A model generated the notes under the pieces. That model did no database searches. It was not told the DNA's origin and saw nothing but the letters and a program-made list of their open reading frames with translations. A program made the position numbers and the translations under genes. Below are positions 7,506 through 11,682 of a stretch of DNA of 64,000 bases, piece by piece; position 1 is the first letter of the stretch; each line of letters starts with the position of its first letter. The DNA comes from Paenirhizobium selenitireducens ATCC BAA-1503 (lineage in GTDB: Bacteria > Pseudomonadota > Alphaproteobacteria > Rhizobiales > Rhizobiaceae), in contig NZ_KI912495.1 of assembly GCF_000518785.1 (NCBI RefSeq), forward strand, positions 26,257-90,256. The letters are read 5' to 3'.

Positions 7506-7530
7506 AAGCCGCCGCTAAGGCGGCTTTTTT
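7506..7530 (+). terminator. Intrinsic terminator after infC
   Basis: AAGCCGCC (7506-7513), loop GCTAA, GGCGGCTT (7519-7526), followed by a T run to 7530. It separates infC from the acidic-protein cassette that follows. Confidence 0.9.
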
Positions 7531-7542
7531 CATGGGCCGTTG

Positions 7543-7581
7543 CTGACATTTCCCTGACAGCCCCGTTGGGCAAGCTGTCAG
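7543..7581 (+). promoter_or_regulatory. Candidate response-regulator box upstream of the acidic-protein gene
   Basis: CTGACA occurs at 7543-7548 and again at 7554-7559, separated by five bases, so the halves are 11 bases apart on the same face of the helix. This 6-5-6 direct repeat is the layout used by OmpR/PhoB-type regulators such as PhoP and PmrA. A further CTGTCAG at 7575-7581 forms an inverted repeat with CTGACAG at 7554-7560. The site lies 57-95 bases before the ATG at 7638, and an OmpR-type regulator gene lies 1.3 kb downstream. Confidence 0.5.
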
Positions 7582-7637
7582 CCTCCCGGATGCATGATGC
7601 TCGTCATAGAGTTCATCACAGCAAACCGGAGGATAAC

Positions 7638-8222
7638 ATGATCAACCTTTTGCGCAGGCACCTGCTCGTCTCGACCACCGCCCTCTTCTCGCTCACCCTT
7701 GCGCCGGCGCTCGTTTCCGCGCTGTCGGCCCCCCTTGGCGCATCGATCGTCTCGGTCGCGCTCGCCGACGATGACAATGATGGCGGCAACGACGACGACG
7801 GCGGTGACGATGACAACGGCAGTGACGACGACAACGGCGGCAATGACGACAACGGCAATGACGACGGCGGTAATGACGACAGCGATAACGGCAATGACGA
7901 CGATGACAACGGCACCGATGACAATGACAACGGTACCGACGACGACGACAACGGTACGGATGACGACTCGACGGATGATAACGGCGTCGATGACAATGGT
8001 ACCGATGACGACTCCACCGGCGCGAATGCAGATGGCGAACGCACCAGCCTCGTGGTCAACGACGCCCAGCTGCGTGGGCTGAAGAACGGTTCGATGGTTG
8101 CAGTTGACCAGAAGGGTCGCCGCCTCGCCCTCGAAATGGAGCGGAACCGCAACCGGACCGAAGTCAAGATAAAGGCGCCGCGCAATTCGGTGACTGCCGT
8201 GACAATCGTCCCGGCCAACTGA
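7638..8222 (+). CDS. Secreted aspartate-rich repeat protein
   Basis: A 194-residue protein of no recognised family. The ATG at 7638 follows GGAGG at 5 bases; a longer upstream frame is less likely. Residues 1 to about 45 form a signal peptide (INLLRRHLLVSTTALFSLTLAPALVSA). From about residue 42 to 130 the chain is almost only Asp, Asn, Gly and Thr in units such as DDDNGGND and NGTDDD, giving an extreme negative charge suited to loose Ca2+/Mg2+ binding but lacking a strict RTX nonapeptide. The last 60 residues form a small ordered domain (RTSLVVNDAQLRGLKNGSMVAVDQKGR, then RNRTEVKIKAPRNSVTAVTIVPAN) that is basic. It is the first gene of a cassette with a PepSY protein and a two-component system, so a role as cation buffer or signal partner is inferred, not shown. 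Confidence 0.8.
   Translation: MINLLRRHLLVSTTALFSLTLAPALVSALSAPLGASIVSVALADDDNDGGNDDDGGDDDNGSDDDNGGNDDNGNDDGGNDDSDNGNDDDDNGTDDNDNGTDDDDNGTDDDSTDDNGVDDNGTDDDSTGANADGERTSLVVNDAQLRGLKNGSMVAVDQKGRRLALEMERNRNRTEVKIKAPRNSVTAVTIVPAN
7764..8030 (+). repeat. Low-complexity GAC/AAC/GGC tract
   Basis: About 265 bases built from GAY, AAY, GGY and ACS codons encode the Asp/Asn/Gly tract of the acidic secreted protein. Units are imperfect, so the tract is protein-driven and not a simple DNA satellite. Confidence 0.8.
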
Positions 8223-8230
8223 GGTCCGTC

Positions 8231-8295
8231 GAAACGGATGCGGCGCAGCCGCCGGTGCCGCAGCCGTTTCACCCCGCCCGCAACCCGGGCGGGGT
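8231..8295 (+). terminator. Tandem hairpins between the two acidic-protein genes
   Basis: A first stem joins AAACGG (8231-8236) to CCGTTT (8264-8269), with TGCGGC/GCCGCA inside it. A second, very stable stem pairs ACCCCGCCCG (8271-8280) with CGGGCGGGGT (8286-8295), followed by CTTCTC, not a clean T run. It may be a full or partial terminator that lowers expression of the downstream PepSY/two-component genes relative to the acidic protein. Confidence 0.6.
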
Positions 8296-8373
8296 CTTCT
8301 CGTTGCAGTGGCGCATCGGCCCGACAGTCGCTAGTCTCAATGGTGATCGACCGGCGAAGAGAACGACGAAATC

Positions 8374-8868
8374 GTGAAAATGATGAACAGGCGAGATTTC
8401 CTGCTGTTGTTGCTGGCGGCGCTGCCCGGCGCCGGCGCAATGCTGCATGTCAATCCGGTGTTGGCGGACGACGATGACGGCGGCGACGATGGTGGAGACG
8501 ACGGCGGCGACGATGGCGGCGATGACGGCGGCGACGATGGCGGCGATGACGGCGGCGACGACGATAGCGGAAATGACGATGATGGCGGCAATGACGATGA
8601 TGGCAAGGACAGCGCCGACAAAGACGGCGACGCGGACGACCACGTCGAAGCGCGTGATGCCGTTCGTAACGGCCGCATCCTGCCGCTTCGCGAAATCCTG
8701 AACCGGGTGAAAGCCATGCGTGCCGGGCGTGTCCTGTCGGTCGATCTGACGCTGGGCGGCAGGACGCCGGTCTATATCCTCAAGGTCGAGAACAACACGG
8801 GAAGCGTGCGCACGCTTCGCCTCAATGCGGAGACGGGTCGCGCGCTCGGCCCGTTCGCATGGTGGTGA
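8374..8868 (+). CDS. Acidic PepSY-domain secreted protein
   Basis: A 164-residue exported protein. GTG at 8374 or ATG at 8380/8383 are possible starts; none has a strong ribosome binding site. MNRRDFLLLLLAALPGAGAMLHVNPVLA is a signal peptide with a Tat-like RR. Residues about 30-90 are a DDGGDDGG tract. The C-terminal 75 residues (VEARDAVRNGRILPLREILNRVKAM to LNAETGRALGP) match the PepSY pattern: a helix followed by YILKVEN and the closing D/NAxTG motif. PepSY proteins often lie beside two-component systems and act as periplasmic modulators. The stop at 8868 is 4 bases from the response regulator start, so the three genes are probably co-transcribed. The shared Asp/Gly tract ties it to the protein at 7638-8222. 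Confidence 0.85.
   Translation: MKMMNRRDFLLLLLAALPGAGAMLHVNPVLADDDDGGDDGGDDGGDDGGDDGGDDGGDDGGDDDSGNDDDGGNDDDGKDSADKDGDADDHVEARDAVRNGRILPLREILNRVKAMRAGRVLSVDLTLGGRTPVYILKVENNTGSVRTLRLNAETGRALGPFAWW
8466..8640 (+). repeat. GACGATGGCGGC tandem tract
   Basis: Repeating GAC-GAY-GGC-GGC units encode DDGG repeats of the PepSY protein. The 12-base period is much more regular than in the preceding acidic gene and could vary in copy number by slippage. Confidence 0.8.
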
Positions 8869-8872
8869 CGAC

Positions 8873-9538
8873 ATGAGGTTGCTGCTTGCCGAAGATGATC
8901 GCGATATCGCGGAACACACGAAAGCCAAGCTCGAGGCGGAGGGCTATCTCGTCGACCATCTCGCCTCCGGCCCCGAGGTCTGGGAGGAGGGCGAGACCGG
9001 CGACTATGCCGCCATCATCCTCGATCTTGGCCTGCCGGGCATGGACGGCCTGTCGATCCTCAAGCGCTGGCGGGCAAGCGGCCTCGATACGCCGATCCTC
9101 GTCCTGACGGCGCGCGGTTCCTGGATGGAGCGGGTCGATGGCTTCGAGGCCGGCGCGGACGACTACCTGCCGAAGCCGTTTCGCAGCGAGGAACTGATCG
9201 CCCGTCTCAAGGCCTTGCTGCGCCGCTCCCGCAAGCGCCCGTCGCCGATCAAGTCGGCGGGGCGTTTCGTGGTCGACGACCAGACGCGGCGGGTCACCTA
9301 TGACGGCCAGCCGCTGGAACTGACCGCGCTGGAATATCGCCTCGTGCAAATGCTTGTCAGCGAGCCGGGCCGCGTCTTCGATCCGATCGAGATCGCCCGA
9401 CGCGTGCAGGGGCGGGACGACGACACGGCCAAGAACTCGGTCGAGGCTATGATCGCCCGGCTTCGGCGCAAGACCGATCCGGAAGCGATCGAGACGCGCC
9501 GGGGCTTCGGCTATGTGCTGCCGGATCAAGACGCATGA
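8873..9538 (+). CDS. OmpR/PhoP-family response regulator
   Basis: A 221-residue response regulator. The receiver domain (1-115) has the acidic pair in LLLAEDDRD, the phospho-acceptor Asp51 in IILDLGLPGMDG, Thr in LVLTARG and Lys in YLPKPF. The C-terminal winged helix (about 130-218) has the ELTALEYRLVQMLVSEPGRVF and IARLRRKTDPEAIETRRGFGYVL pattern of the OmpR/PhoB group. The ATG at 8873 is chosen because it begins the receiver; it is 4 bases after the PepSY stop. The stop overlaps the kinase start by 4 bases (ATGA). A CTGACA-N5-CTGACA direct repeat upstream of the cassette is the best candidate for its own binding site. Confidence 0.95.
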   Translation: MRLLLAEDDRDIAEHTKAKLEAEGYLVDHLASGPEVWEEGETGDYAAIILDLGLPGMDGLSILKRWRASGLDTPILVLTARGSWMERVDGFEAGADDYLPKPFRSEELIARLKALLRRSRKRPSPIKSAGRFVVDDQTRRVTYDGQPLELTALEYRLVQMLVSEPGRVFDPIEIARRVQGRDDDTAKNSVEAMIARLRRKTDPEAIETRRGFGYVLPDQDA

Positions 9539-10860
9539 TCCATTCGCTCCGGATCCGGGTCGTCCTCGGCGCCTTTGCCGCCATCGTCTTCATTCTTCTG
9601 GTGCTGGGTTATGGCCTGAGCCGTGTCTTTTCCGGCTATGTCGCCGAGCGCTACAGGGTGGAAATGGCGGGCATCGTCGATCAGCTCGCTGCGGGCCTGG
9701 AGCTGCGCGACGGCAAGGTGGTTCTCGAAAAGACGCCGACCGATCCCCGCTTCACGCTTCCCGGCAGTGGACGGTACTGGCAGGTGGTTCCCCAACCGGG
9801 CGAGGTGCTGCGCTCGCGGTCGCTGTGGGATATCGACCTGCCGGCCGATGCGCTGCTTCCGGCGGATTACGGGTTCCTGGCGGCGGAGGGGCCCGACGGT
9901 GCCGACCTTCTTGTCTATCAGCGTGCGATCTCTCTCGATGAGCCGCATGGCTCGCGGCGGTTTACGCTGTCGGCCGCCTTCGATCGTTTCGAGTTCGACG
10001 ATGCGGTTGCCCAGTTTCACAGTGCCATGGCCCTGATGCTGACCCTCAGCGCCACAGTCCTAGTGGCCGCCGCGATCTTTCAGGTGGGCGTCGGGCTCGC
10101 GCCTCTCGTGCGCCTTCAGCAGCGGGTGGGGCTGGTGCGCTCCGGACAGGCGAATTCGGTCGACGATGTCGGCGTGTCGGAACTGCGGCCGCTCGTTTCC
10201 GAGCTCAACCTGCTGCTCCAGGAACGCGAGACGGCCGTCGAACGGGCGCGAGCCCGGGCCAGCGATCTAGCGCATGGCCTGAAGACGCCCTTGACCGTCC
10301 TTCTCCATCTCGCCGACCAGCTTCCGCCCGAAGAGAAGGAACTGGCGCGCCAGCAGGTGGATCTCATTCGCCAGCGCGCCGACCGCCAGCTGCAATCGGC
10401 ACGGCTGGGCGTCGAGCAGATGAGCCTGACCGAACTCGGCTCGCTGGTCGGCAAGCTGGTCATGGTGCTGAGGCCGATCACCGAGCCGAGCGGTATCGAA
10501 TGGTTGATCCGCGTTCCGGCCGGGCTTGCCGTGGACATGGACGCGGCGGATTTCGCAGAAGCGCTGGGCAACGTGCTCGACAACGCCACCCGGTTTGCCC
10601 GGGGCGAAATCCGCATCACGGCCACCGGCGAGGACAAGGCGGCGGTGGTGACCGTTGAGGACGACGGACCGGGCGTGGCGGACACGGACCTGGCCATCCT
10701 CCCGTCGCGGGGCGTGCATCTGGGGGATGACGACGGCGGTTCCGGTCTAGGGCTTTCCATCACGGCGGAAATCCTGTCGGCCTATGGCGGTGTGCTGGAG
10801 CTCGGCCGCTCCGAACTCGGCGGGCTGTCGGTCCGGCTGTCTGTGCCGCTTCGCGGGTAG
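9535..10860 (+). CDS. Membrane sensor histidine kinase, PhoQ-like
   Basis: A 441-residue kinase. Transmembrane segments lie near residues 8-30 and 163-185 and enclose a periplasmic sensor of about 130 residues. A HAMP-like linker precedes the H-box ASDLAHGLKTPLTVLL, with the phospho-acceptor His at residue 247. The ATPase domain has the N-box NVLDNATRFA, the G1 box DDGPGV and the G2 box GSGLGLSI. The LAHGLKTPL form is shared with PhoQ/FeuQ-type kinases, which sense divalent cations, cationic peptides or envelope state. Coupled to the response regulator by a 4-base overlap. Stimulus is inferred only; the two very acidic exported proteins upstream fit a cation-related signal. Confidence 0.93.
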   Translation: MIHSLRIRVVLGAFAAIVFILLVLGYGLSRVFSGYVAERYRVEMAGIVDQLAAGLELRDGKVVLEKTPTDPRFTLPGSGRYWQVVPQPGEVLRSRSLWDIDLPADALLPADYGFLAAEGPDGADLLVYQRAISLDEPHGSRRFTLSAAFDRFEFDDAVAQFHSAMALMLTLSATVLVAAAIFQVGVGLAPLVRLQQRVGLVRSGQANSVDDVGVSELRPLVSELNLLLQERETAVERARARASDLAHGLKTPLTVLLHLADQLPPEEKELARQQVDLIRQRADRQLQSARLGVEQMSLTELGSLVGKLVMVLRPITEPSGIEWLIRVPAGLAVDMDAADFAEALGNVLDNATRFARGEIRITATGEDKAAVVTVEDDGPGVADTDLAILPSRGVHLGDDDGGSGLGLSITAEILSAYGGVLELGRSELGGLSVRLSVPLRG

Positions 10861-10905: not shown

Positions 10906-10934
10906 TTGCGCTTTTATCCGTCAGCGGTTATAAG
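10906..10934 (+). promoter_or_regulatory. Sigma-70-type promoter of rpmI-rplT
   Basis: TTGCGC (10906-10911), a 17-base spacer and TATAAG (10929-10934). Spacing and both elements are near ideal for a housekeeping promoter. It gives rpmI-rplT a transcription start near 10941, independent of infC. Confidence 0.65.
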
Positions 10935-10944
10935 CGCGCGTCCG

Positions 10945-10974
10945 AACGGTCCGGCAGGGCATGCCGTGGCCGTT
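10945..10974 (+). promoter_or_regulatory. Hairpin in the rpmI leader
   Basis: AACGG (10945-10949) pairs with CCGTT (10970-10974), and CGGCA (10952-10956) pairs with TGCCG (10962-10966), followed by CTTTAT. It would be at the very 5' end of the rpmI-rplT transcript. Such leaders are regulated by L20 in other bacteria; here that is an inference. Confidence 0.45.
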
Positions 10975-11035
10975 CTTTATGCTTGAAAACGGGCGTCGTC
11001 TGTCCGTTTCGATACAAGAACAATGGAGTAGCAAA

Positions 11036-11239
11036 ATGCCCAAGATGAAGACGAAGTCCTCCGCCAAAAAGCGGTTCAAGATCACTGCCACCGGCAAGGT
11101 CCTCGCGGCCGCCGCCGGCAAGCGTCACGGCATGATCAAGCGGTCCAACAAGTTCATCCGCGATGCACGCGGCACGATGGTTCTTTCCGAAGCTGACGGC
11201 AAGAAGGTCATCAAGAACTACCTGCCGAACGGTCTCTGA
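11036..11239 (+). CDS. rpmI: 50S ribosomal protein L35
   Basis: 67 residues, the usual size. It starts [17 protein letters not shown], with the conserved core [18 protein letters not shown] and a C-terminal [12 protein letters not shown]. The ATG at 11036 follows ATGGAGTAG; longer frames upstream would add residues that L35 never has. The gene is followed after 38 bases by rplT, the standard pair. It has its own promoter because the two-component cassette separates it from infC. Confidence 0.97.
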
Positions 11240-11277: not shown

Positions 11278-11682
11278 ATGGCACGCGTAAAACGTGGCGT
11301 AACTTCCCGCGCCAAGCACAACAAGGTATTCAAGGCAGCCAAGGGTTTCTACGGCCGCCGCAAGAACACGATCCGCGCAGCAAAGGCAGCTGTGGATCGT
11401 TCGAAGGCATTCGCCTACCGCGACCGCAAGGTCAACAAGCGCAACTTCCGCGCCCTGTGGATCCAGCGTATCAACGCTGCTGTGCGCGAACACGGCCTGA
11501 CCTATGGCCGCTTCATCGACGGTCTGAACAAGGCCGGCATCGAAGTCGACCGCAAGGTTCTGTCCGACATGGCCATCCACGAACCGGCAGCCTTCGGCTC
11601 GCTGATCGCGGCTGCCAAGAAGGCACTGGCCTACCTCAAGGACGCCGGCACGGCGAACGAGTTTGAAAGCGCGGTCAAGTAA
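11278..11682 (+). CDS. rplT: 50S ribosomal protein L20
   Basis: 134 residues beginning [30 protein letters not shown], with the conserved [25 protein letters not shown] core. L20 binds 23S rRNA early in 50S assembly, and in many bacteria it also represses its own operon by binding the leader or the rpmI region. AAGGAG lies 8 bases before the ATG. A strong terminator follows the gene. Confidence 0.98.

Follow-up and report, generated by a model that had tools for sequence, protein, structure and literature searches.

We analysed a stretch of 64,000 nucleotides from Paenirhizobium selenitireducens ATCC BAA-1503 (contig NZ_KI912495.1, positions 26,257 to 90,256 of the forward strand; hereafter the window), in which a cassette of four genes, encoding two exported proteins (P1 and P2), an OmpR-type response regulator (RR) and a PhoQ-like sensor histidine kinase (HK), sits in its entirety between infC and rpmI. 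A previous sequence-only reading had described it as a self-contained envelope-sensing module, and the open reading frames of the window confirmed the four genes at the positions given there, as well as a terminator belonging to infC itself. The RR and HK genes overlap by 4 bp, and the gap from the end of P2 to the start of RR is equally 4 bp. The features of the locus are the following:

7506..7526, + strand: intrinsic terminator of infC, a stem followed by TTTTTT (T6)
7543..7559, + strand: candidate regulator box CTGACA-N5-CTGACA, a direct repeat with an 11-bp period
7576..7581, + strand: inverted third half-site TGTCAG, 16 nt past the box; a -10-like TGCATGAT comes next, by eye
7638..8222, + strand: P1 gene; export judged by eye, low-complexity Asp-rich middle, conserved C-terminal domain (codons 8019-8219)
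8232..8295, + strand: structured RNA element in the P1-P2 gap, two nested stems and a GC hairpin (8271-8295)
8374..8868, + strand: P2 gene, exported divergent PepSY protein; RRxF Tat-like signal, Asp-rich linker, PepSY stretch at about 8683-8850, C-terminal FAWW
8873..9538, + strand: OmpR/PmrA-type RR gene (Pfam, NCBIfam)
9535..10860, + strand: sensor HK gene; PDC/PhoQ-like periplasmic domain (codons 9631-10023), phospho-acceptor His in HGLKTP
11036-11239: rpmI
11278-11682: rplT

In a genus sample of 60 genomes, with HK orthologues defined by at least 44% identity, the kinase was found in 44 genomes (the window's own included), and all 44 loci were examined. The HK gene is followed by rpmI in 44/44, and infC lies upstream in 40/44; the other four loci are two contig ends (L041, L049) and two rearrangements (L058, L059), in which rpsO-pnp (by eye) stands instead of infC beside RR-HK-rpmI and no P2 is recognisable. 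These last two loci are a natural instance of an RR-HK pair without a PepSY partner. One more genome (G004) has infC and a partial RR gene at a contig end (L156), and G030, where infC was not found, was counted neither as present nor as absent. The cassette is absent from 14 genomes: 12 have an infC-rpmI gap of 211-244 bp with no trace of it (tblastn, E 0.01), and two, G010 (gap 715) and G040 (gap 338), keep kinase remnants between infC and rpmI (loci L158 and L152; in L152, 32 aa at 59% identity, E 1.2e-7). A parsimony reading of presence and absence over a tree built from infC, rplT and pheS (68 rows, including one cassette-less genome of another genus) required 11 changes, at least 9 of them forced by supported branches. 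The cassette occupies the same location in Ensifer, Sinorhizobium, Pseudorhizobium, Oricola and Salaquimonas, and of 80 named kinase loci 29 are flanked by infC upstream and rpmI downstream, among them those of Oricola, Salaquimonas and the Pseudomonadota metagenome-assembled genome (MAG) KLAP69; four named relatives (L085, L090, L091, L096) have P2-RR-HK with neither infC nor rpmI within the fetched flanks. Since these genera share the site, repeated loss of the cassette as a whole unit, about ten times, is the simplest reading of the tree, and the kinase remnants are the reason for which we read the absences as losses. A recent mobile-element insertion was considered and found no support, given the old location and absences that resemble losses. 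The claim of a self-contained module thus held: gene order is constant in the main clade of cassette genomes, the genes are lost jointly, the C-terminal (tail) domain of P1 is confined to the cassette genomes found, and the genes did not turn up apart in most relatives.

The site itself proved less unusual than the sequence-only reading had supposed when it took infC-rpmI-rplT to be normally adjacent. Among 100 genomes of the order with both infC and rplT (the own genome included), the two genes are contiguous (at most 900 bp apart) in 23 and collinear at 901-6000 bp in 28, the remainder having them apart or on other contigs; the 26 genomes with infC and rplT on different contigs may include some assembly breaks. 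We read 27 loci outside the genus (L288-L314). They represent 21 of the 27 genomes, the own one not counted, with infC and rplT at 901-6000 bp, together with four genomes above 6 kb, one contiguous and one non-collinear. In the loci from other families, unrelated genes occupy the infC-rpmI gap, and the cassette was present in 0/27; one locus (L306) has weakly similar RR and HK genes (24-27% identity) on the opposite strand. Separation of infC and rpmI by unrelated genes is thus largely typical of the order, which makes the separation unremarkable and leaves the module untouched; the conserved content is the remarkable part.

The RR scored above the Pfam cut-offs for Response_reg and Trans_reg_C, and the HK above that for HATPase_c and slightly under that for HisKA (24.2 vs 26.9). 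None of the NCBIfam equivalogs listed reached its cut-off for either protein, the best model for the HK being PhoQ (113.8 vs 497 bits). The predicted model of the HK sensor is a PDC domain of PhoQ/CusS-type fold, with PhoQ among the best structure matches. The PhoQ sensor carries an acidic cluster of its own, whereas the 29 cassette sensors compared have at most four D/E in any seven residues, so that the description of the kinase as PhoQ-like stands for the fold of its modelled sensor and fails for the equivalog score and the acidic cluster. A second PepSY-RR-HK triad was seen in the own genome (L068 4071-4110, contig 4), with divergent PepSY_2 and cytochrome b561 genes, both above their Pfam cut-offs, and a degenerate CTGACA box between them; in a relative (G055, L211), the exported protein matching that of this second triad looks Asp/Gly-rich too.

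P2 fell under the curated cut-off of the PepSY family PF03413 (17.4 vs 24 bits), which matched at E<=0.1 in 11 of the 19 members of our alignment A3. Profile-profile comparison with the PepSY proteins of other triads, in contrast, was clear (hhalign probability 99.0%, E 5.6e-18), and P2 also matched the PepSY chain 9vy3 of the PDB (E 9.1e-5). Since the PF03413 cut-off is not a structural feature, we retain the assignment of the earlier reading and conclude from these comparisons that P2 is a divergent PepSY relative. Its N-terminus is signal-like by eye; an RRxF motif was matched in 29 of 30 orthologues, and inspection of the last, L039, showed MDRRRF. The NCBIfam twin-arginine translocation (Tat) model scored 13.7 vs a cut-off of 16.7; export is probably through Tat. 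The C-terminus is FGW, FGWW or FAWW in 30/30. In the main clade the linker varies freely in letters and length, with a net charge of -8 to -30 in the 30 correctly trimmed rows, and what is conserved in P2 is the domain and the aromatic tail.

P1 likewise has an N-terminus that is signal-like by eye and, in the window, shares an Asp-rich composition with P2. Its tail domain, which is not recognisably PepSY, occurs once per genome in 29 of the 31 genomes with a main-clade cassette; in the remaining two the locus is a contig end. It was not found in the 29 further genomes of the sample of 60, which include the 13 of the sister clade. The P1 linker has a net charge of -10 to -42 in 27 correctly trimmed main-clade rows, one mis-trimmed row (L052) being excluded from this range. 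In Oricola, R. alvei and some Sinorhizobium, the P1 slot holds exported low-complexity proteins, judged by eye, without the tail domain. P1 is probably an acidic protein that is exported to the envelope and disordered for the most part, and it may be either an output of the system or a second modulator. The proposal of two intrinsically acidic exported proteins stands for the main clade, where correctly trimmed linkers are net negative, and does not extend to the sister clade, which has no P1 and in which 11 of 13 genomes have a PepSY protein with a readable Gly/Pro-rich linker of net charge +2 to -11.

In the RNA element that separates P1 from P2, 8 of 18 pairs showed two-sided changes; covariation was 0.294 vs 0.154 in shuffled alignments (0/500), and the window strand folded with a z of -3.15. 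A model built from 22 sequences scored at least 75 bits in 6/6 left-out main-clade genus loci (L033, L035, L036, L043, L045, L055), and in that search no match above 20 bits was obtained outside main-clade loci (Ensifer, sister-clade, cassette-less and other loci searched). In a scan of 30 genomes, it found the element at the cassette in 15 of 16 main-clade cassette genomes, the exception (G018) being a contig end, with weak matches elsewhere (<29 bits). No Rfam family reached its gathering score in 15 loci, Rhizobiales-2 (25.5 vs 40) and Atu_C7 (21.8 vs 45) both remaining below.

The box CTGACA-N5-CTGACA was found between infC and the first cassette gene in 40/40 loci (28 exact, eight with one mismatch, four with two), with TGTCAG 15-16 nt past it in 37; 50 permuted half-site sets over the same loci gave 0 exact and 0.06 one-mismatch sites per set. 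With two mismatches allowed, this was the sole recurrent site in the 40 loci, and over the 60 genomes there were 94 exact matches vs 7 for the reversed pattern. The box also extends to a distant set of 42 RR-HK loci with kinases 34-41% identical (the close relative L106 excluded; best site within 900 bp), mostly from alpha- and gammaproteobacteria, with many MAGs and one from Gallionella. There it was exact in 17 and one mismatch off in 10 (27/42 within one mismatch), permuted sets giving 0 and 0.22. A PepSY gene lies upstream in 41 of the 42, by a hidden Markov model built partly from the same loci; a divergent cytochrome b561 gene is present in 16, and 12 of these 16 have a box within one mismatch. 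The box is a candidate autoregulatory site of the cassette RR.

Relatives have further exact boxes: some lie upstream of a cytochrome c' gene or of a TctC-like gene, and others are next to genes whose identity no search established. The cytochrome c' gene (PF01322; subclade loci L208, L212-L219, L222 and L224) has an exact box upstream in 17 of 30 main-clade cassette-positive genomes and a two-mismatch box in three more, compared with 0/13 in the sister clade and one exact among 15 others, G030 included (G010, with its remnants; G040, with its cassette scar, has two mismatches); the window's own genome has no box before this gene. This distribution is lineage-specific and confounded by ancestry, and cytochrome c' as a candidate regulon member is therefore a mere lead. 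In the own genome, CTGACATTTGCCTGACA lies divergent from a TctC-like gene, by eye (L205 about 2865, contig 12), perhaps the site of a TctD-type regulator with a similar half-site. An exact box stands beside a membrane protein gene, kinase-like by eye, in L206, L207 and L209, and in L207 (from G040, where the cassette is a scar only) a gene that is haem-peroxidase-like by eye is near it. The box, the covarying RNA element and P1 with its tail domain confined to the cassette genomes found are new; a search of the open PMC literature, covering titles and abstract beginnings, returned nothing on the cassette or the box.

Two published systems bear on how these parts may work together. In Vibrio cholerae, the gene of the PepSY protein DbfQ precedes dbfRS; DbfQ binds the sensor of DbfS (30 nM), and the authors infer that it favours phosphatase activity (PMC12714742). 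In Sinorhizobium meliloti, FeuN restrains FeuQ (PMC12486126, PMC5929573). In the light of these precedents, P2 is most likely a kinase-holding modulator by analogy, the box autoregulatory and P1 an exported partner made in excess. We consider it fairly probable that, as a whole, the cassette is a PepSY-RR-HK module of the DbfQRS kind with an extra exported protein, a P2-restrained kinase and a self-activating operon. In this scheme P2, exported probably by Tat, would bind the PDC sensor of the HK through its PepSY domain and aromatic tail and keep the kinase in the phosphatase state; an envelope disturbance would remove or outcompete P2, the HK would phosphorylate the RR, and the RR would bind CTGACA-N5-CTGACA/TGTCAG at 7543-7581 and activate the operon from P1. 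Positive feedback would then run through RR and HK and negative feedback through newly made P2, while the RNA element would permit production of excess P1.

P1 and P2 might instead be mainly outputs, secreted as acidic envelope protectants against cations, metals or cationic peptides, with the HK sensing stress alone. The box directly upstream of P1, the separate P1 domain of no recognised family, the net negative main-clade linkers and the low-complexity proteins that fill the P1 slot even without the tail would all fit; P2, however, shares its domain and gene position with the kinase modulator DbfQ and is conserved in domain and aromatic tail, not in the linker, so that we regard this as an unlikely explanation. 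The sequence-only reading had proposed that the acidic proteins act on divalent cations or cationic peptides, either buffering them or presenting them to the HK; their tracts would then supply in trans the acidic patch of a PhoQ-like sensor. A PhoQ-type fold lacking the cluster beside proteins with long acidic tracts speaks for this idea, but the linker letters are free, and in many distant triads (among the rows listed, and in an alignment of 16) the PepSY protein is short and has no such tract. With sister-clade linkers mostly near neutral and Gly/Pro-rich, cation buffering stays a minority reading, possible and not general to the family, and as originally stated the proposal is doubtful. 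More speculatively still, and improbably as a whole, the acidic tails of P2 and P1 could form a detachable polyanion shield in trans at the PhoQ-fold HK, with neutralising cations or cationic peptides stripping P2 and switching the circuit on; the box would then mark a proteobacterial family of PepSY-guarded kinases, with cytochromes of the periplasm and of the membrane among their ancestral outputs. That the cassette regulates, or is co-regulated with, infC and rpmI-rplT through its position is very improbable: the location is kept across Rhizobiaceae, but infC has its terminator, rpmI has a conserved upstream region of its own, also in the cassette-less loci compared, no box is recurrent ahead of rpmI in the 40 loci scanned, both flanks survive clean loss of the cassette, and unrelated genes fill the same gap in other families.

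That upstream region agrees with the separate rpmI-rplT promoter of the earlier description: it holds TTGCGC-N17-TATAAG at 10906-10934, alike by eye in 10 cassette and six cassette-less loci. The promoter-like motif and the leader (10906-11035 in the window) are nearly identical in the loci compared, with or without the cassette; the region has no Rfam match and is possibly an autoregulatory leader.

PepSY-guarded kinases are widespread, and direct binding of a kinase by a PepSY protein is shown in one species in the literature found (PMC12714742, 2025). The cassette offers a handle on how such sensors, common among bacteria but little studied, are restrained. From sequence alone, the box predicts sites in the operons and regulons of relatives throughout Proteobacteria; the recurrent natural losses supply close relatives that differ in having or lacking the cassette; and P1, P2 and the RNA element are small enough to be tested directly.

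Among known systems, PhoPQ resembles the cassette in its kinase: no NCBIfam model matches the HK better than that of PhoQ, which also ranks among the top structure matches. The cassette differs in that its HK is below the PhoQ cut-off, the sensor lacks the acidic cluster and a PepSY partner is present. FeuN-FeuPQ is alike in being a rhizobial kinase with a periplasmic negative regulator (PMC12486126, PMC5929573). A third RR-HK paralogue in the own genome (L004, contig 2), separate from the cassette and preceded by the gene of a small protein that matches no Pfam family, is possibly feuNPQ. In BqsRS of Pseudomonas aeruginosa, two exported proteins (PA2658, PA2659) are encoded before the pair, as in the cassette; both are PepSY-type (PMC12714742), whereas the tail of P1 is not recognisably so, and the same paper reports neighbourhoods of PepSY genes and two-component systems across phyla. 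DbfQRS resembles the cassette in plan, with a small exported PepSY protein immediately upstream of RR-HK, a periplasmic sensor domain and, as its authors report there, positive feedback on the operon and widespread relatives. The cassette has its PepSY gene within four genes of the RR/HK pair (export judged by eye) and adds to this plan P1, a long Asp-rich P2 linker, a Tat-like signal, a fixed infC-rpmI location, the box and the RNA element, which makes it a variant form of the DbfQRS-type modules already in the literature.

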